15,869 nt of DNA from Bryobacterales bacterium (GTDB lineage Bacteria; Acidobacteriota; Terriglobia; Bryobacterales; Bryobacteraceae). Position numbers and translations under genes: made by a program. The stretch is from the NCBI GenBank assembly GCA_016789785.1, contig JAEUQE010000217.1, positions 1 through 15,869 of the forward strand, written 5' to 3'. Positions within the stretch are counted from its first letter, which is position 1; every line of letters starts with the position of its first letter. Under the pieces are notes generated by a model. The model did not search any database. It saw nothing but the letters and a program-made list of their open reading frames with translations, and was not told the origin of the DNA. Shown one piece after another: positions 72 to 13,599 of the stretch.

Positions 72-2804
72 CTAACACGCCAATGTCAACTGCATCGAGT
101 ATGCCGGCGCGGCGGGCAACTGACACCCGGGCGATCCCGGCAGACGGAACGTGCGGTTTTCCGCCGCCTGCATCCGCTGATTCCCGTAAGGCGGGGGCAG
201 CGAACTGTAAATAGGGCCTCTGGTATCGACCGCACGGCACGGATTCACGGGGTAATACAAGTAACCCGGCGTCCCAGGATCCGAGGTAAAGTAACCGGTG
301 ATATCGATGATCAAGTTTGTGTTGTTACTCGAATATGCGTTGATCGCACCGCCGTCGCCGGCCTCGACGATCGCGGAATTGGCGATGTAACCACCGGTAG
401 TCGTGCGGAGGGTCATAAATTCGGGCCGCGACCCGCCGGCGGGCCAAAGAGTGACATAGTCGACGGGGCCTGTCTGGTTCTCGATCGTGTCTGCGGTAAC
501 GTTTAGCACGTAGACTTGAGCTGAGGCCGGGATGTTGCAGGTGGTGGAAGATTGGACCGCGATGGTGCGCGTGACGCCGGCTGTCAGCATGGGCGGGCCG
601 AAGGCACCGGTCCTGGGACCCGCGTAGGTTGGTCGAGTATCCACCAGCCGGCAAGGAGTCACCGGAACATACTTATGCCCGACGGGCACGCCCACGCCGG
701 TGAACACATACGCCGCTCCGCTGCCAGACGCCGTGTTGTCGGCCTGATTTCCGTTCACGCCAGTAGCCGCGCTGTCCTCTCCGGGCGCCCCCACCACCAC
801 CGTGTCCCCAGATATCGCTACGGTGTGGCCGAACCAGTCATTCGCGCCCGTGTTGGACGCCTTCAGATACGCCTGCTGGCTCCACACCCCACCGCTCCGC
901 ACGAACACGTACGCCGCCCCGCTGTCAGTAGCGGTGTTGTCGGCCTGATTCCCGTTCCCTCCGGTGGCCTCGCTGTCCTCCGTAATCGCCCCCACCACCA
1001 CCCTGTCCCCGGACACCGCCACGCAACAGCCAAAAAGGTCCGCCGCCCCCGTGTTGGACGCCTTCAGGTATGCCTGCTGGCTCCACACGCCCCCGTTCCG
1101 CACAAACACATACGCCGCTCCGCTACCACCAGCGGTATTGTCGGACTGATTTCCGTTCACTCCGGTGGCCGCACTGGACTCTACATTCGCTCCCACCACC
1201 AGCGTGTCGCCAGATATCCCCACGGAAACGCCAAATTGGTCACCCGCTCCAGTGTTAGACGCCTTCAGATAGGCCTGCTGGCTCCACACGCCCCCGCTCC
1301 GCACAAACACATACGCCGCTCCGCTACCACCAGCGGTATTGTCGGACTGATTTCCGTTCACTCCGGTGGCCGCGCTGGCCTCATATGGCGCCCCCACCAC
1401 CACCGTGTCCCCCGACACCGCCACGGAAGTGCCAAAAGAGTCATACGCCCCCGTGTTGGACGCCTTCAGATACGCCTGCTGGCTCCACACGCCCCCGCTA
1501 CGCGCAAACACATAGGCTGCTCCGCTCCAAGGAGCGGTATTGTTGGACTGATTTCCGTTCACTCCGCTGGCGAAGCTGGACTCTGCACGCGCCCCCACCA
1601 CCACCGTGTCCCCTGAGATCGCCACCAACTCGCCAAAAAAGTCACCCGCGCCTGTGTTGGACGCCTTCAGATACGCCTGCTGGCTCCACACGCCCCCATT
1701 CCGCACAAACACATACGCTGCCCCGCTGTGGTAGGCGCTGTTGCTGGACTGATTCCCGTTCACCCCGGTGGCGGCGCTGGACTCAAACCACGCACCAACC
1801 ACCACCGTATCCCGGGACACCGCCACGGAAGTGCCAAAATAATCCCCCCCCTCGCCGTTGGACGCCTTCAGATACGCCTGCTGGATCCACACGCCACCAC
1901 TCCGCACAAACACATAAGCCGCTCCGCTTTGAAAAGCGCTGTTTTCCACCTGATTCCCGTTCACTCCAGTGAACGCGCTGTCCTCCCCTGACGCCCCCAC
2001 TACCAGCGTGTCCTCGAACACCGCCACAGACACGCCAAAATCGTCAGCCGCGCCCGTGTTGGATGCTTTCAGATACGCCTGCTGCGCGATCGGATCGATG
2101 GTCACCGGATAACGCGCACCCGCATCCTCCACCGTCAGCCGTACCCTTTCCCCGGCCACCGTCAGATTCGCCGGAAGCACGCGCTGATCGGCATCCCACA
2201 CCTTCAGCCCTCCGTACTGCACCACACCGAAGCTGACACCCCGCCCATCGGCCCGAGGCATCAACCCGCCGCGCACCGCCAGTTCGATCTCCAGCGCTCC
2301 CTTCCACCCCGCCGGACGCCGTTTCACCGTGAACCCGTGCTCCAACCCGCGGCCATCATTGACAAACCACTCACTCAAATCAGCATCGTGGCTGTAAGTG
2401 ATGCGGTTACCCTCCACCCGCGCCGCCGGCTTACCCTTCACCAACCTACCGCCGTAGCGCACCACCTCCAGACCCCACTTCCAGGCGCCCCCATCCGGCG
2501 TCACCTCAAATCCCCGCCCGTCAAACCGGGTCACCCATTGCTGACCGGGATTCCGCGCACTCCAGCCATCGCCGGTCCGCACCACGGCATGGCGGTGTTT
2601 CTCATACGCCGCCCGGATCTGGTCCCAGTCGGAGGAACTTACCTCCTTCGGCAGGTTCACAGCCGCCAATGGCGCGGCCGTGAACATCAGCAGCGCAACC
2701 AATCGCCGGTTTGCCCTGGAACCAGCGGCCAAGAGCCGTGCCAGCGTGCCAGCGTGAATCTTGCGTGAAGTTTTGCGGATTAAGGGATAGGATGAGTGCA
2801 TCAT
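72..2804 (-). CDS. Exported FG-GAP repeat (beta-propeller) protein with C-terminal VDTR domains
   Basis: Probable secreted or surface protein of unknown ligand. The N-terminus is basic, followed by a hydrophobic stretch (about residues 33-48, RRLVALLMFTAAPLAA) that fits a long signal peptide. Residues about 50-238 form a beta-rich region ending in ITIDP-like 'VTIDPIAQQAY'. Residues about 239-708 are seven tandem units of exactly 67 residues, each with QQAYLKAS, DxFGxSVAxSGDTVVVGA, TGVNGNQ and SGAAYVFVRSGGVW. These match FG-GAP repeats, and seven units suit an integrin-alpha-like propeller. Two 'PCR(L/A)VDTR' domains follow (from about residues 717 and 857). The first is complete (NVTA, LWPAGG, IIDITGYF); the second stops after QLTLAC, about 60-70 residues early. 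The start is the first of two adjacent ATGs; there is no clear ribosome site. The fold is fairly certain, the function is not. Confidence 0.85.
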   Translation of the reverse strand: MMHSSYPLIRKTSRKIHAGTLARLLAAGSRANRRLVALLMFTAAPLAAVNLPKEVSSSDWDQIRAAYEKHRHAVVRTGDGWSARNPGQQWVTRFDGRGFEVTPDGGAWKWGLEVVRYGGRLVKGKPAARVEGNRITYSHDADLSEWFVNDGRGLEHGFTVKRRPAGWKGALEIELAVRGGLMPRADGRGVSFGVVQYGGLKVWDADQRVLPANLTVAGERVRLTVEDAGARYPVTIDPIAQQAYLKASNTGAADDFGVSVAVFEDTLVVGASGEDSAFTGVNGNQVENSAFQSGAAYVFVRSGGVWIQQAYLKASNGEGGDYFGTSVAVSRDTVVVGAWFESSAATGVNGNQSSNSAYHSGAAYVFVRNGGVWSQQAYLKASNTGAGDFFGELVAISGDTVVVGARAESSFASGVNGNQSNNTAPWSGAAYVFARSGGVWSQQAYLKASNTGAYDSFGTSVAVSGDTVVVGAPYEASAATGVNGNQSDNTAGGSGAAYVFVRSGGVWSQQAYLKASNTGAGDQFGVSVGISGDTLVVGANVESSAATGVNGNQSDNTAGGSGAAYVFVRNGGVWSQQAYLKASNTGAADLFGCCVAVSGDRVVVGAITEDSEATGGNGNQADNTATDSGAAYVFVRSGGVWSQQAYLKASNTGANDWFGHTVAISGDTVVVGAPGEDSAATGVNGNQADNTASGSGAAYVFTGVGVPVGHKYVPVTPCRLVDTRPTYAGPRTGAFGPPMLTAGVTRTIAVQSSTTCNIPASAQVYVLNVTADTIENQTGPVDYVTLWPAGGSRPEFMTLRTTTGGYIANSAIVEAGDGGAINAYSSNNTNLIIDITGYFTSDPGTPGYLYYPVNPCRAVDTRGPIYSSLPPPYGNQRMQAAENRTFRLPGSPGCQLPAAPAYSMQLTLAC
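681..2088 (-). repeat. Seven tandem 201-bp FG-GAP coding repeats
   Basis: The motif encoding LKAS (plus-strand cttcag or its variant) recurs at 861, 1062, 1263, 1464, 1665, 1866 and 2067, a spacing of exactly 201 bp with no indels. Neighbouring copies can be almost identical: 1097-1172 and 1298-1373 are the same for 76 bp, whereas other pairs have diverged. This points to recent duplication or gene conversion within an older array. The limits given are approximate unit boundaries. Confidence 0.9.
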
Positions 2805-3794: not shown

Positions 3795-4099
3795 GCTGGG
3801 AGAATCGGACGGTCCGGTGAAGGGAGAGCGATTCCCCGTGGGAACTCGATTGGCGGAAGTCACCAGAGCCGGTTTCCGAAGGTTCCGAAGCGTGGGTGCG
3901 CACGGCCTTCGCCTCCTTCCTCTGTCCGATGTCCCCGCTGCTCGGCACTCGGGAAGGGTAGCCGTGGGCGGCGGCTGTCCCCGGATCGAGATGGGGATCG
4001 AGATGGGGAGCGCATCGATGCCATCTTTGGACGGATGGCCCACCCGAAGCGGCCCGATCAGTTTTCCATGCAATTTCAATGCAAATCCACGCATTGGCC
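3795..4099. other. Gene-free stretch with a short tandem repeat
   Basis: No recognisable gene lies here on either strand. The only structure seen is a perfect 12-bp tandem duplication (atcgagatgggg twice, 3985-4008). Long open frames on the plus strand are antisense to the neighbouring pseudogene and look like a high-GC artefact. Confidence 0.4.
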
Positions 4100-4200
4100 C
4101 AATGCTCTTCGGGCGCAGCCAGGCGTCCCGGGACGCGGCACGGGGTAAACTTGCGCTACCGTCAGATGTGCGGCGCCAAAGTGCCAAGTGAACGTTATTG
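4100..4200 (+). mobile_element. Decayed 101-bp MITE-like element (copy 1)
   Basis: This aligns end to end with the 131-bp element at 11961-12091. The left end is CAATGCTCTTC (4100-4110) and the right end GAACGTTATTG (4190-4200). The shared core includes TGCGCTACCGTCAG (4152-4165) and GTGCGGCGCCAAAGTG (4168-4183), both identical in the other copy. It lacks 24 bp after the left end and a further 6 bp in the hairpin region. The 10 bases on each side, CGCATTGGCC (4090-4099) and CGCCTTGACG (4201-4210), match at 7 of 10 positions, consistent with an eroded target duplication. A perfect palindrome, GCGTCCCGGGACGC (4123-4136), replaces the long hairpin of the intact copy. No coding capacity. Confidence 0.8.
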
Positions 4201-4239
4201 CGCCTTGACGGGCGCATCCGCCTGCGCGAGGTTCAGGGT

Positions 4240-8548: not shown

Positions 8549-8881
8549 ATGGGATCGAAAGCGGATCTGCTCCAGGGCACCCTCGACTTGATTGTGTTGC
8601 GGGTACTCTCGCTTGGGCCGAAACACGGCTACGGCATCGCCACGCGCATCCGGCAGATCTCGGAAGATGTGCTGCAGGTCAATCAAGGCTCTCTCTACCC
8701 CGCGCTTCTGCGTTTGGAGCAGCGCGGCTGGATCAAGTCCTACTGGGGCACCACGGACACGGGCCGCGAGGCAAAGTTCTTCGAGCTGACGCGGGCGGGC
8801 AGGAAGCAGCTCGCTGTGGAGTCAGAGAACTGGGAGCGCGTGAAAGGCGCCATTGGACGGCTGATGGAAGCAGTGGAGTAG
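8549..8881 (+). CDS. PadR-family transcriptional regulator
   Basis: A 110-residue winged-helix repressor. The PadR pattern is clear: LLQGTLDLIVLRVLSLGPKH, then GYGIATRI, then the recognition-helix and wing region QGSLYPALLRLEQRGWI and LTRAGRKQL, then a short C-terminal dimerisation helix (to residue 110). This is the short PadR class that accompanies acidobacterial duplicated permeases. The stop codon (8879-8881) is four bases before the permease ATG, and the permease ribosome site lies in the last padR codons, so the two are one operon with likely translational coupling. The regulator probably controls its own operon through the inverted repeat in its promoter. The inducer is unknown. Confidence 0.92.
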   Translation: MGSKADLLQGTLDLIVLRVLSLGPKHGYGIATRIRQISEDVLQVNQGSLYPALLRLEQRGWIKSYWGTTDTGREAKFFELTRAGRKQLAVESENWERVKGAIGRLMEAVE

Positions 8882-8885
8882 CGCG

Positions 8886-11540
8886 ATGCGCATGCTGTGG
8901 TCGCGGATCCGGGGATTTGTGTTTGCGGGCAGGCTCGATCGCGATTTGGACCGCGAGATCGAGGCGCATGTCGCGCTGATCGCCGAGGGCCTCGTCGAGC
9001 GTGGAATCTCGCCCGGCGAAGCGCGCAGAATGGCAATCCGTGAGTTCGGGAACATCTGTCTTGCCAAAGAGGACTATCGCGAAAGGAGAGGGCTGCCCAT
9101 GTTGGAGATGCTGATTCAGGATGTGCGTTTCGCCGTTCGTGTGCTGCGGCGCAAGCCGGCATACAGTATCGCGGCGATGATTGTGCTCGCCCTCGGCATC
9201 GGCCTGAGTACGGCGGTATTCAGCGTGATTCATGGTGTGCTGCTGAGCCGCCTTCCTTATCCGGATCAGGATCGCCTCCTCACACTCTGGCAGACGAATC
9301 CGAAGAAGCAGGGCACGAGAGACGAGGTGGCCATCGCGAACTTCCTCGATTGGAAAGAGCGGCAGCGCAGCTTCGAGAATCTCGCCGTCATCGAACCCTT
9401 CAGCCACGAGTTGATGGGTGATGGCGAACCGGAGGCCATCCGGTCATGGATTGTGTCCGAAGGTTTCTTCTCCATCATGGGAACTCCGCCGCTGTTGGGC
9501 CGTTGGTTTACCGCGGAGGACTATCGTGCCGCGCCTCAGGAAGGGTACGCTCCCGGAGGTGGGAACGTGGTGATTCTCAGCTACGGCTTGTGGCAGCGGC
9601 GCTTCGGTGGTGATCCGAAGGTCATCGGCAGAGCATTTCCGTTGCGCGGGCGTCCGATGATCGTAGTGGGAGTAATGCCACCTGGCTTTCAGTATCCGCT
9701 GAAACGGGAGTTATGGGCGCCGAGACTGGCCCAGAAACAGGATCGTGAAAGCCGTGTGTCAACCTACATGATGGCGGTCGCGCGATTGAAACCCGGAGTC
9801 CGCATCGATCAGGCGCGAGACGACATGATCCGCATTGCCACCGAGTTGGAACGGGAGCACCCCGCAACGAATAAGGGTTCCTCCATTCAGTTGATTCCCA
9901 TTGCCGATGCGCTGACGGGGCATGTGCGAACGGCCTTTTGGATCCTGCTTGGCGCAGTCGGGCTGCTGCTCGCCGTCGCCTGCGCGAATGTGGGTGGCCT
10001 CGTGTTGGCACGCGGCGTGGAACGGACGCATGAACTTGCGGTACGGCGCGCGCTGGGGGCATCGCCAGGGCGGCTCATGCGGCAGTTGGTCACGGAGACC
10101 AGCGTGCTTTCGCTTTGCGGTGGAATCGCCGGAGTAGCCATCGCGCATCTGGCGGCTCGCACGTTGCGCGCGCTTCCTGTTCCGGATGTGCCCCGGATGG
10201 AGCAGGTGGGCATCAGCGTTCCGGTGGTGGCATTCGCGGTCGCAGTCAGCGCGTTCACCGCGGTGGTGTGTGGCCTGCTGCCGGCGTTACGTCTCGGCGG
10301 CGGAGACAGTAGCGGCGCGATGAAAGCAGGCGGCCGTTCGTTCGTCACCACGCCCGCGCGCGAAAGAGCCCGCCGGTGGCTGGTCGCCGGGCAGATCGCA
10401 GTCTCCATGGTCCTGCTCACGTCTGCCGGTCTGCTGACGCGAAGTCTGGTGCATTTGTTGGCCATCCACCCCGGATTCACAGGACAGCGGGTTATCTCAT
10501 TGGAGGTTCATGCGTACAGGCGTACGCCCACTCCCGAAGAACGAATCGCTTACTTCCGGCAGACCACGGAGAGCATCCGCCAAGTGCCCGGCGTACAGGC
10601 CGCAGCCGCCGTTTCCGCGCTCCCGTTTCACGAGAACGCCATCGACGTCGAGACTCCGGTGCAGGCAACCGGGGAAGCGCTGAAACCCATCGACGCACGC
10701 CCTGTCGCGCGCGTGACCGTGATTACGCCAGACTACTTTCAACTGATGCGAATCCCGTTGCGTCAAGGCAGATTCTTCACCGATTCCGATGGCCCATCCA
10801 GCGCGCGAGTCGCCATCATCAACGAAGCGATGGCGCGAAGTCTGTTCGCGGGAACGGATCCGGTCGGCAGGCAGATCATTGTTGGCCGGGGAGCAAACCA
10901 TGTCCGCCAGATCATCGGTGTAACGGCCAACACGCTTCGTACGGGTTTGGATGAATCACCACGTCCGGAGTTCTTCCTGCCGCACGCGCAAAGCGGCGCG
11001 GGCTCCATGACCTTCGTGGTGCGGACGGAATCCGATCCTTGGATCGCCTTGCCAGCGATCAAAGAGGCGATCTGGAGCGTGAAGCGCGGTCAACCATTCT
11101 CAAAGATCGCAACCGTGGATGCGCTGGTGGCCGGCACCCACGGCGAGCGCCGGTTCCAGTTGGCATTGATCAGCGTTTTTGCCGCGTTGTCGCTGCTGCT
11201 GGCAGCAGTGGCCCTGTTCGGCTTCATGAGCTACTCGACCAGTCAGCGGCGTTCCGAAATCGGCCTTCGCATGGCCCTCGGCGCGTCGCGCAGGGATATT
11301 CTGCGGCTGATCATCAGCGACGGTCTCGCGATCGCCGCCGCGGGCGCCGCTGCCGGAACGGCCGGCTCATGGATCGTGGGCAGCGGCATTCGCGCGATGC
11401 TCTTCGGAGTGGCGCACTACGACGTGGCGACGTTTGCGTCAGTGGTGCTGACGCTCGCTGGTGTCACACTGACGGCGAGTGCGTTGCCTGCGATGCGCGC
11501 CGCCAGCACCGACGCCGCGAATGCCCTTCGATCGGAGTGA
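8886..11540 (+). CDS. ADOP-family (MacB/FtsX-like duplicated) ABC permease
   Basis: An 884-residue inner-membrane protein. Residues about 17-60 form the ADOP prefix domain (LDREIEAHVALIAEGLVERG ending IREFGN). One helix at about 95-117 is followed by a MacB-type periplasmic domain, three helices (about 346-370, 405-425, 440-465), another leading helix (about 497-520), a second periplasmic domain, and three final helices (about 760-785, 815-835, 845-870). The motif 'ELAVRRALGAS' and its partner 'EIGLRMALGAS' mark the two FtsX halves, as in the acidobacterial duplicated orphan permease family. No ATPase gene is nearby, which is usual for ADOP; the substrate is unknown. GGAG at 8875-8878, seven bases before the ATG, supports this start; an ATG two codons later is an alternative. 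The stop codon directly abuts a convergent rraA remnant. Confidence 0.93.
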   Translation: MRMLWSRIRGFVFAGRLDRDLDREIEAHVALIAEGLVERGISPGEARRMAIREFGNICLAKEDYRERRGLPMLEMLIQDVRFAVRVLRRKPAYSIAAMIVLALGIGLSTAVFSVIHGVLLSRLPYPDQDRLLTLWQTNPKKQGTRDEVAIANFLDWKERQRSFENLAVIEPFSHELMGDGEPEAIRSWIVSEGFFSIMGTPPLLGRWFTAEDYRAAPQEGYAPGGGNVVILSYGLWQRRFGGDPKVIGRAFPLRGRPMIVVGVMPPGFQYPLKRELWAPRLAQKQDRESRVSTYMMAVARLKPGVRIDQARDDMIRIATELEREHPATNKGSSIQLIPIADALTGHVRTAFWILLGAVGLLLAVACANVGGLVLARGVERTHELAVRRALGASPGRLMRQLVTETSVLSLCGGIAGVAIAHLAARTLRALPVPDVPRMEQVGISVPVVAFAVAVSAFTAVVCGLLPALRLGGGDSSGAMKAGGRSFVTTPARERARRWLVAGQIAVSMVLLTSAGLLTRSLVHLLAIHPGFTGQRVISLEVHAYRRTPTPEERIAYFRQTTESIRQVPGVQAAAAVSALPFHENAIDVETPVQATGEALKPIDARPVARVTVITPDYFQLMRIPLRQGRFFTDSDGPSSARVAIINEAMARSLFAGTDPVGRQIIVGRGANHVRQIIGVTANTLRTGLDESPRPEFFLPHAQSGAGSMTFVVRTESDPWIALPAIKEAIWSVKRGQPFSKIATVDALVAGTHGERRFQLALISVFAALSLLLAAVALFGFMSYSTSQRRSEIGLRMALGASRRDILRLIISDGLAIAAAGAAAGTAGSWIVGSGIRAMLFGVAHYDVATFASVVLTLAGVTLTASALPAMRAASTDAANALRSE

Positions 11541-11672
11541 TCACTGCTTCTGAGGCCTTCGCTCCTTCCAGGGCATGTTCGCGCGGCGCCACCACGACAC
11601 CGTCGCCATCGGCAACAGTAACGTCGCCGGGCCCGTTGAAACACTCGCCCTACCTGTTGACCAAAGTCGCAA
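11541..11672 (-). pseudogene. RraA-like gene remnant (C-terminal end)
   Basis: On the minus strand, PGDVTVADGDGVVV then PREHALEGAKAS closely matches PGDVIVADGDGVIV and PREHALEVAKAS of the intact RraA-like gene at 13600-14376. A weaker match, VNR then GPGD, extends it to about 11672 but includes a stop codon and a deletion. The final bases, AGAAGCAGTGATC, match the 3' end of the intact gene after a deletion of roughly 43 bp that drops MRFLDNIGLDRY. It is only about 130 bp of a gene of about 780 bp, cannot make a functional protein, and ends back to back with the ADOP stop codon. Confidence 0.75.
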
Positions 11673-11683
11673 GATGGACTTCT

Positions 11684-11946
11684 TCAGTCCAGCGCGACAT
11701 TGGCGAGCTGCCGGAAACGTTGGCCCAGGCGCGGATTCATGTTGTGATGAGTCCTGAAGACACATCGGTGCCGGCGCCGTATCAGAAGCTGAGGTAGCCG
11801 GAAATCTCGCCTTGATCGACGGCGCTGTTGAGGAAGCGGGTGAGGCGCGCCAGCGCTCCGGTTGCAGATCGGCTTGGGCGGGCGTTGCATGAGCGAAGCC
11901 GCGTGCGCCGCGATCGCGAAGAGCAGATCCGGGGAGGAAGGATCAT
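11684..11946 (-). pseudogene. Beta-lactamase-family gene remnant (both ends, middle deleted)
   Basis: Minus strand from an ATG at 11944-11946. Pieces in shifting frames give LLFAIAAHA (signal-peptide core), PAQADLQPE, and FLNSAVDQGEISGY, which matches VMNASVEKGEISGY of the intact gene next door. After a stop, another frame gives VFRTHHNMNPRLGQRF then RQLANVALD, matching the C-terminal RHRFKQLAYLALD. The catalytic centre (SxxK, Tyr motif, about 300 residues) is gone. It is on the same strand as the intact gene and directly downstream. Without the mobile element between them, its ATG would lie about ten bases past that gene's stop codon, so the pair probably arose as a tandem duplication or paralogous operon. 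Confidence 0.75.
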
Positions 11947-11950
11947 AGCC

Positions 11951-11960
11951 TACTTAGTCC
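11951..11960. repeat. Left target-site duplication of MITE copy 2
   Basis: TACTTAGTCC, a perfect 10-bp direct repeat of 12092-12101, abutting the left inverted repeat with no gap. Confidence 0.85.
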
Positions 11961-12091
11961 CAATACTCTTCAGTTAGGCGCTAGAGGCTAGGTTCGGGCA
12001 CAGCCATGCGTCCCGAGTCGGGGCGCGGCATGGCTGAAGGCCTGCGCTACCGTCAGGCGTGCGGCGCCAAAGTGCAAAGTGAACAGTATTG
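11961..12091 (+). mobile_element. 131-bp MITE-like element (copy 2) with TIRs and 10-bp TSD
   Basis: The left end is CAATACTCTTC (11961-11971). The right end is GAACAGTATTG (12081-12091), whose reverse complement, CAATACTGTTC, matches the left end at 10 of 11 positions. TACTTAGTCC flanks both ends exactly. Inside, CAGCCATGC (12001-12009) pairs with GCATGGCTG (12028-12036), enclosing a second stem TCCCG/CGGGG. The element has no coding frame, so it must rely on a transposase elsewhere. Insertion at the 3' end of the beta-lactamase-family gene left its reading frame intact, because the duplicated target carries the stop codon. A related, decayed copy lies at 4100-4200. A 10-bp duplication is compatible with some IS4- or ISAs1-like transposases, but I cannot assign the family. 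Confidence 0.88.
12001..12036. other. Internal hairpin of MITE copy 2
   Basis: Nine perfect base pairs (12001-12009 with 12028-12036), then an inner stem of five pairs including one G-U (12011-12015 with 12019-12023) closing on AGT. It could fold in RNA or single-stranded DNA and might act as a transcript-end structure for the upstream minus-strand gene, though there is no T run. Confidence 0.65.
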
Positions 12092-12101
12092 TACTTAGTC
12101 C
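12092..12101. repeat. Right target-site duplication of MITE copy 2
   Basis: TACTTAGTCC. On the minus strand it contains the last codon and stop (GAC TAA) of the beta-lactamase-family gene. Confidence 0.85.
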
Positions 12102-13300
12102 AGTGCCAGGTAGGCCAGTTGCTTAAATCGATGGCGATACGGAAGGGAAACCGCCGCCGATAGTTGGTTGATCATGAACACGCCGATGAGCTCTTCCTTC
12201 GGATCCACCCAGAAACCGGTGCCGGCGGCGCCGGACCAGTTGAACTCGCCTTCACTCCCGACGGTGCCGGTTCTGCCGGGTCCTTTGTTGACGGCCATGG
12301 TGAGGCCGAAGCCGTAGCCGGGCGCCACCGCGCCCATCGCTTGTTCAACAGGCAGATTGCCCAGGTGGTCCGATGCCATCAGTTCGACTGATTTGCGGCT
12401 GAGCAGGCGCTTGCCATCGAGTTCGCCTTTGTTCAACAGCATCTGGGCGAAGCGGGCGTAGTCCATAGCGGTGGAGACCAAGCCTGCGCCTCCCCAGAGA
12501 ACTTCCGGCTTCGTCTTCTGCATGTCCTGCCAGGCGCTTTTGTTTGGTTTGGCTTTGCCGTTGCCGTCTGGCTCATCCAACGACACCAGACGCGATACCT
12601 TGCCGGCAGGCAGCCAGAAGCCGGTGTCCTTCATGCCGAGCGGACGGAAGATGCGTTCGTCGAAAAACTGATCCAGCGACTGGCCGGAGACGGCTTCGAC
12701 GAAGCGGCCCAGCACATCGATGCCGACCGCGTAGTGATAGCGCGTTCCGGGCTGATGCAACAGCGGCTGCTTCGCCAAAGCCAGTGACCATGCGGCGAGA
12801 TTCATACCGGGTTTGGCGAGGTTCATGCCGCTGTAGTCGAAGCCCGCGGTGTGACGCATGAGGTCGCGGATGGTGATGGGCTTCTCGGCGCTCACCGTGC
12901 CCGCGGCGCCAGTCTTCACCTGCATGTTGGCGTACTCGGGCAGGTACTTCGAAACCGGGTCCGTGAGGAAGAGCTTACCTTCTTCGTAGAGCATCATGAC
13001 GGCGACGCCGGTGACAGGCTTCGTCATGGAGAAGATGCGGAAGATGGAGTCCTTGGTGACGGGTTGGTTGGATCCGGCACCCTGCCGGCCGTTGGCGTGG
13101 AAGTAGCCGATTTTGCCGCGGCGGGCGATGAGGCCGACATAGCCGGAGATCTCACCCTTCTCCACGGAGGCATTCATCACGCGCGTGGCGCGGGTGAGCG
13201 CATCGGCATGCAAGCCGGCCTGAGCGGCTGGGACTTCGTCCAACCAGGCGCCACACAACACGCCTGCGGTCAAAAACAAGGACAGCATTGTTTGTTTCAT
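12095..13300 (-). CDS. Secreted serine beta-lactamase/esterase-family hydrolase
   Basis: A 401-residue protein of the Beta-lactamase family (class C, EstB and penicillin-binding relatives). The N-terminal signal peptide (MKQTMLSLFLTAGVLCGAW, cleavage near AAQA at 25-28) sends it to the periplasm or outside. The nucleophile motif is FSMTK (Ser91, Lys94). YHYAVGIDVLG supplies the active-site Tyr (188-190), and the C-terminal motif NWSGAAGTGFWVDP takes the place of the KTG box, as in EstB-type esterases. MRHTAGFDY and DPVSKYLPEY are also typical. The open frame reaches 13333, but that first codon is GTG without support; the ATG at 13298-13300 is followed directly by the signal peptide and preceded by GAAGAAG. 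Substrate is uncertain: ester, D-amino-acid peptide or lactam. A MITE has inserted immediately after the stop. Confidence 0.9.
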   Translation of the reverse strand: MKQTMLSLFLTAGVLCGAWLDEVPAAQAGLHADALTRATRVMNASVEKGEISGYVGLIARRGKIGYFHANGRQGAGSNQPVTKDSIFRIFSMTKPVTGVAVMMLYEEGKLFLTDPVSKYLPEYANMQVKTGAAGTVSAEKPITIRDLMRHTAGFDYSGMNLAKPGMNLAAWSLALAKQPLLHQPGTRYHYAVGIDVLGRFVEAVSGQSLDQFFDERIFRPLGMKDTGFWLPAGKVSRLVSLDEPDGNGKAKPNKSAWQDMQKTKPEVLWGGAGLVSTAMDYARFAQMLLNKGELDGKRLLSRKSVELMASDHLGNLPVEQAMGAVAPGYGFGLTMAVNKGPGRTGTVGSEGEFNWSGAAGTGFWVDPKEELIGVFMINQLSAAVSLPYRHRFKQLAYLALD

Positions 13301-13599
13301 GGCTTCTTCGGATGACTCTCGCCAGTTTGTCACAACCGCGCGATCCGCTGGGGAATCACCCTCCTACCGGTCGAGAGTCATTGGCCGGCCGACATACGGC
13401 TCAGGTTCTCACGCCGCGGCAGATCAGGACCGCCAGCACGCCCTGCCGCAACGCAAGCTGCCGGCGCCGGACATCGCTGGCCCCGGTGCGTAACAGCCAG
13501 GTTGAATGTTGAGGACTGTTGGTGTTACTGAGGCTAACGTCCCAGTCGACGGGAGCCGTTGTGGGGCCGCCACCGATGGCCCCTTCGAGACTCTTCCGA
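13301..13599. other. Spacer between beta-lactamase-family and RraA-like genes
   Basis: No gene is recognised in these 299 bp on either strand. The beta-lactamase-family promoter probably lies in the right-to-left reading near 13310-13400 (TTGTGACA is a possible -35 box), but I cannot assign it firmly. A 13-base string, GATCACTGCTTCT, at the rraA end is shared with the rraA remnant at 11540. Confidence 0.35.

Follow-up and report, generated by a model that had tools for sequence, protein, structure and literature searches.

The question raised by this locus is whether a short intergenic sequence with inverted ends, enclosed by direct repeats, is a mobile element and, if so, which type of transposase moved it. 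The window, the whole stretch of 15,869 nucleotides of a Bryobacterales bacterium that was analysed, carries at 11961-12091 (plus strand) an element of 131 bp and 61% GC. Sequence inspection places perfect 10-bp direct repeats, TACTTAGTCC, at 11951-11960 and 12092-12101 (neither assigned a strand), where they abut both ends of the element. Comparison of the ends defines a left terminal inverted repeat, CAATACTCTTCAGTT, at 11961-11975 (plus strand) and a right one, CAATACTGTTCACTT when read inwards, at 12077-12091 (minus strand), which are identical at 10 of 11 positions and at 13 of 15 over a longer span. The original prediction had described such an element, with ends matching at 10 of 11 positions and directly abutting repeats, and it is confirmed at 11951-12101. 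Among the 827 pairs of identical 10-mers spaced 60-2500 bases apart in the window, the 11951/12092 pair is the sole one with abutting 11-bp inverted ends (at most one mismatch). No listed open reading frame of at least 100 aa lies inside the element, which is too short for a gene, in keeping with the claim that it is non-coding. Its size, inverted ends and lack of coding capacity are those of a MITE (about 70-300 bp), and so is the target-site duplication abutting the ends. Given the perfect duplication, a recent insertion is plausible.

Repetition with homology confined to the element is likewise found in the same stretch. When the element is compared with the rest of the window, 4108-4200 matches 11993-12091 (80.8% over 99 columns, E 1.8e-16). 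This is the only further strong match, in the same orientation and 7.8 kb away. The decayed second copy spans 101 bp at 4100-4200 (plus strand), with ends CAATGCTCTTC and CAATAACGTTCACTT; it is defined by the sequence match, its left end being placed by motif, and the homology stops exactly at the right end. Its left flank, CGCATTGGCC (4090-4099), and its right flank, CGCCTTGACG (4201-4210), which adjoins the matched right end, have no strand and are identical at 7 of 10 bases when compared by eye. They probably represent a decayed 10-bp duplication.

Relatives were sought in public genome contigs as two facing ends 92-122 bases apart, with the flanks ignored. This pattern matched 21 loci, with about one match expected by chance according to our estimate. 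By record label, the loci belong to Acidobacteria, Thermoanaerobaculales, Methylomirabilota/NC10, Oscillochloris, Viridilinea, Lentisphaerae, Burkholderiales and a MAG labelled Bordetella parapertussis, and span five phyla, to which a Prevotella locus (L015) is added. Oscillochloris and Viridilinea are taken here to be Chloroflexi. The Prevotella locus was regarded as a chance match within coding sequence; it is counted among the 21 loci of the duplication scan and left out of the set of 22 elements (20 loci and both window copies) whose interiors are described below. Duplications of 10 bp are exact at 8 of the 21 loci and have at most one mismatch at 12. When lengths of 6-15 bp were scanned over the same loci, only 10 stood out: 11 bp occurred once, and 6-9 and 12-15 not at all. 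The 10-bp duplications are present in four of the five phyla, the Lentisphaerae locus having none. Neither a lack of other CAATACT-ended copies nor homology running well past such ends with no duplications beside them, the two grounds on which the original prediction was to be given up, is what was found: such ends occur at 4100-4200 and at the 21 loci, and the duplications abut them at 12. In 11 genomes picked for bearing the end motif, the motif with one mismatch allowed occurs 242 times, versus 5 times for the reversed pattern. An exact CAATACTGTTCASTTAAG was found in G007 alone among 396 genomes of its phylum.

Plasmid and phage records gave no match to the element. In viral contigs, the paired-end pattern matched one locus, which has no duplication, and a pattern built from the right half of both window copies matched none. 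An 18-base end pattern gave eight viral loci, none with both a partner end and a duplication, and these were read as chance.

Full-length insertion sequences (ISs) that combine CAATACTG ends, 10-bp duplications, an NNNYTARNNN target and a transposase with Nterm_IS4 and DDE domains occur in other genomes and match the window ends over the first 8-15 bases only. A search for transposase-bearing ISs with CAATACT ends had been proposed as a check; it led to G421 and G108 and, with one end, to G073. The route to G421 was a 51-aa piece encoded in a 232-bp partial element of G407 (L152). In a set of 60 genomes akin to G407, matches to this piece came from that genome and from G421 (nine places, 44-53% identity) and from no other; the piece has no Pfam match and one weak protein match. 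The G421 IS measures 1449 bp and has CAATACTGCTTACTT ends, with terminal forms CAATACTGCTTACTTAA and CAATACTGCTTACTTTA. Exact 10-bp duplications flank two of the five copies having both ends, and YTAR lies at the left-end flank in all nine copies. Its transposase (L193) contains PF13006 (Nterm_IS4) and PF01609 (DDE_Tnp_1) domains; against NF033592, the IS4_1 model with a cut-off of 115, it reaches 226 bits. Nterm_IS4 occurs in 3 of the 149 genomes of G004's phylum. The G108 IS (1515 bp, CAATACTGTCGGTACAA ends) has exact 10-bp duplications at the three of its five loci that could be read (ACCCTAGGGC, ACCCTAGCCA and ACCCTAGTCC), one of them with a changed end. Genome G073 carries an end, CAATACTGTTCACTTAG (CAATACTGTTCACTTAGCG), about 66 bp upstream of a 414-codon Nterm_IS4 frame; a right end was looked for there and not found. 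An IS in a viral contig has ends CAATGCTGATCAGTTAAGG and CAATGCTGTTCACTTAAGC and a 12-bp duplication. All four proteins measured have DDE spacers of 75-76 and 100-104 residues and a YREK signature, and the full-length relatives agree with the IS4-family pattern given in PMC2266710, D(60-110)D(100-150)E and Y(2)R(3)E(6)K. As a side observation, the multi-copy Nterm_IS4 ISs of G421 and G108 with their CAATACTG ends were not matched to a named IS, ISfinder lying outside the comparison.

The main open reading frame of these ISs holds the DDE and YREK residues, and a KRK-containing tail lies out of frame in four of the five types. This differs from the IS4-family transposases treated by De Palmenaer et al. 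(PMC2266710), which are described there as single-ORF. In G421 (L193, L196, L192), G108 (L203, L205) and G073 (L199), the main frame stops just past a run of 5-7 C. In four Nterm_IS4 IS types, the next frame (+1 or -2) then holds a KRK(M/I/V)-type tail, as if a frame change completes the transposase. In the viral IS (L206), the tail is in frame and there is no C run.

The ends of the window element, CAATACTCTTCAGTTA and CAATACTGTTCACTTT, fit the signature -AATR--------WTW---- that Table 1 of De Palmenaer et al. 2008 (PMC2266710) gives in its IS4 row. The same row lists direct repeats of 10-13 bp, and the repeat in the window is 10 bp. Because of the second copy, the 10-bp duplications in relatives and the matching full-length Nterm_IS4 ISs elsewhere, the 131-bp element is very probably an IS4-family MITE, inserted by the transposase of a full-length relative with such ends. 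The first reading of the locus as a MITE is thus borne out by the decayed window copy, the 21 paired-end loci and the matching ISs. To judge by the sequences, the mover of the window copy was presumably a relative of the full-length Nterm_IS4 ISs. Its transposase would bind both ends of about 15 bp, cut the element out and insert it, with a stagger of 10 bp, into a target resembling GGSYTARNCC; gap repair would then yield the 10-bp duplication. This cut-and-paste chemistry is attributed to the element by analogy with the family. The verdict is an IS4-type MITE, of a kind already known, that inserted at a stop codon and has a decayed copy 7.8 kb off. No name for this particular member was met in the open literature, and no open paper contains CAATACTGTTCA; the original prediction, which recognised no named element, held to that extent, ISfinder and subscription journals lying outside the scope of the search.

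A partner was also sought within the MITE-bearing genomes. None of the IS4-family genes examined in these genomes carries MITE ends, and none was found intact as an autonomous partner. Of 61 places with PF01609 (36 and 25), 55 had loci that were checked, with no convincing case of flanking MITE ends; one (L076) lies within a single weak end pair that has no duplication. The IS1634-family gene of G407, linked to a CAATACT end via a 46-bp contig overlap, was considered as a partner and set aside, as it has its own ends by eye. Separately, loci L152, L153 and L092 of G407 show an IS1634-family element apparently inserted into a CAATACT-ended element, which retains, elsewhere, a fragment resembling the G421 transposase.

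The mover might instead have belonged to another IS4-family group, whose ISs end in CACTA[CG]TGTCCGG. Three of the 15 MITE-bearing genomes examined contain such ISs, with ends partly like those of the MITE, and PF13006 is missing from 14 of the 15, the remaining genome having a 118-aa remnant. However, the readable duplication of the CACTA[CG]TGTCCGG type is 9 bp rather than 10 (L053, and L065 with a related end), and it is the Nterm_IS4 ISs that combine the CAATACTG ends with 10-bp duplications and a YTAR target. MAG assemblies often lose repeated ISs, so the absence of Nterm_IS4 from them is weak evidence. Transposition by the CACTA[CG]TGTCCGG group is accordingly considered improbable.

Two further readings dispense with an IS4-type mover. 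In one, the sequence is a functional intergenic hairpin, either a bidirectional terminator or a structured RNA, and its repeats arose by chance. The setting is suggestive, with the element lying between convergent genes (the permease ends at 11540 and the PF00144 gene at 12095), and the fold of the entire 131 bp runs through its ends. An internal hairpin had been part of the original prediction, and its arms, AGCCATGC...GCATGGCT, can be placed by eye at 12002-12035 (plus strand). This claim is imprecise, since the interior by itself does not clearly exceed dinucleotide shuffles in stability (z -1.52, and +0.53 in the second copy), and the hairpin of the window copy was dropped as evidence. No Rfam family reaches its gathering score in 11400-12700. 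The perfect 10-bp duplication, the second window copy and the 10-bp duplications beside relatives from four phyla (by record label) contradict a non-mobile hairpin, which is therefore given hardly any credence; a terminator role could exist in addition to mobility. In the other reading, a RAYT tyrosine transposase moved the element as a palindrome of the REP/REPIN type. In its favour, both cases that were tested show relatives with palindrome pairs as interiors, and these pairs are also present outside the shell. Against this, the window interior matched only twice, weakly and in part (30 bp at 90%, 22 bp at 100%), when the window DNA was compared with the 396 genomes of G010's phylum, one in each of two genomes and neither with an end pair around it. 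The 10-bp duplications also speak against a REP/REPIN origin of the shell, since no such duplications beside CAATACT ends are known from REP moves. This explanation is extremely unlikely.

For the IS4-type MITE, the target can be described from 34 distinct short elements whose duplications have at most two mismatches. The consensus is approximately GGSYTARNCC, with G at position 1 (24/34), G at 2 (24/34), Y at 4 (33/34), T at 5 (25/34), A at 6 (20/34), R at 7 (30/34), C at 9 (19/34) and C at 10 (24/34). The window duplication TACTTAGTCC agrees with its core. The PF00144 gene occupies 12095-13333 on the minus strand, and its TAA stop (12095-12097) falls inside the right duplication. Because the duplication holds this stop, the gene is whole, and the insertion probably costs it little. 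Elsewhere in the window, a PadR regulator is followed by a MacB/FtsX permease at 8549-11540, and 72-2804 (minus strand) encodes a protein of 910 aa in which units of the SGAAYVF(A/V)R type recur; by eye, these are FG-GAP-like.

Insertion at stop codons recurs among the relatives. An initial count, made with no control, gave 20 of 33 elements, and an earlier controlled run gave 13 of 24, where the 307 YTAR sites used as control gave 21% (4 of 20000 draws). With control sites that share the central 4-mer, the stop of a frame of at least 100 codons is hit in 14 of 22 elements versus 33 of 296 control sites (0 of 20000 draws); for 6 of the 22 loci, which lack a control site, the mean rate was used. 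The count of 22 leaves out 12 of the 34 distinct elements with duplications, whose cores contain no stop. Both controlled runs were made post hoc on overlapping elements with mechanical reading frames, and they do not separate target choice from selection. The excess can reflect the placement of TAR in GC-rich genomes or the loss of harmful insertions. Within the window, 6 of the 9 control sites likewise qualify as stop-codon sites, so this case by itself shows nothing about a stop preference.

The relatives have common ends and different interiors. By blastn at E 1e-3, the interiors of the 22 elements sort into 13 groups, and members of different groups do not match. Fourteen of the 22 are more stable than shuffles (z < -3) compared with 2 of 58 flank controls; both window copies are not among them. 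In G007, the palindrome taken from the shell occurs at 35 exact places, of which 9 lie at most 150 bp from an end. Nineteen of the other 26 places were inspected, and no end is present at any of them even with 5 mismatches of 17 allowed; several of these end-free palindromes lie, by eye, within another, unrelated repeat. Loci L209-L216 and L229-L248 of G007 show the double palindrome GTGGGGCAGG...GGCCGATT free, in a CAATACT shell and in another, larger repeat, GGACAACCCACTGATTC...CAAAGTTTCTGCCGCCAGAGACG. Of the 21 copies of another palindrome in G002 and G003, 13 are in a shell, and the 8 free copies all belong to G003; the palindrome pairs of these two genomes (L249-L269) are CGTTCGGGCTGAGC. 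Since palindromes occur with and without ends in both tested cases, palindrome and shell are separable. It is possible, although rated slightly below an even chance, that CAATACTNTTCA ends mark one IS4-type shell in at least five phyla (by record label) that repeatedly takes up its hosts' dispersed REP-like palindromes and carries them onto stop codons. Five palindrome sequences, not all of them from the loci, were found nowhere in the open literature, subscription journals lying outside that search.

MIC231 is a MITE of the IS4 family made from IS ends. MITEAba12 (111-114 bp, with 9-bp duplications) is attributed to ISAba12 in PMC6382973. The window element resembles such MITEs in size, in its IS-type ends, in a duplication of the length of that type and in having no gene. 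Unlike in these, the end type found here spans several phyla and its interiors vary by lineage. With the IS4 and IS4Sa subgroups, as described in PMC2266710, the element shares the end signature of the IS4 row and duplications of about 10 bp. The full-length relatives carry DDE, YREK and Nterm_IS4 as that family does; the window element differs from the ISs described there in lacking a transposase and in being about one tenth of their length. Section 7 of Di Nocera et al. 2013 (PMC3733652) describes REP dimers set within longer palindromes. The relatives here similarly hold palindrome pairs in a larger palindromic carrier, with two cases also free in the same genome, but carriers with IS4-type ends and 10-bp duplications do not figure in that section. 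The likeness to REP/REPIN concerns the interiors of relatives, in which tags (GTAG/CGTC) were noted by eye, and the window interior is not shown to be REP-like.

For the window, the IS4-type MITE accounts for an otherwise odd intergenic repeat. The shell-and-cargo pattern of its relatives is the part worth following up. If a single shell does take up and carry palindromes, IS4-type transposases would be a route for short palindromes to spread inside a genome and from one genome to another while doing genes little harm. For the wider family, the finding links the dispersed short palindromes found in environmental bacteria with a definite target and a probable type of transposase, and makes their spread, so far a vague matter, testable.
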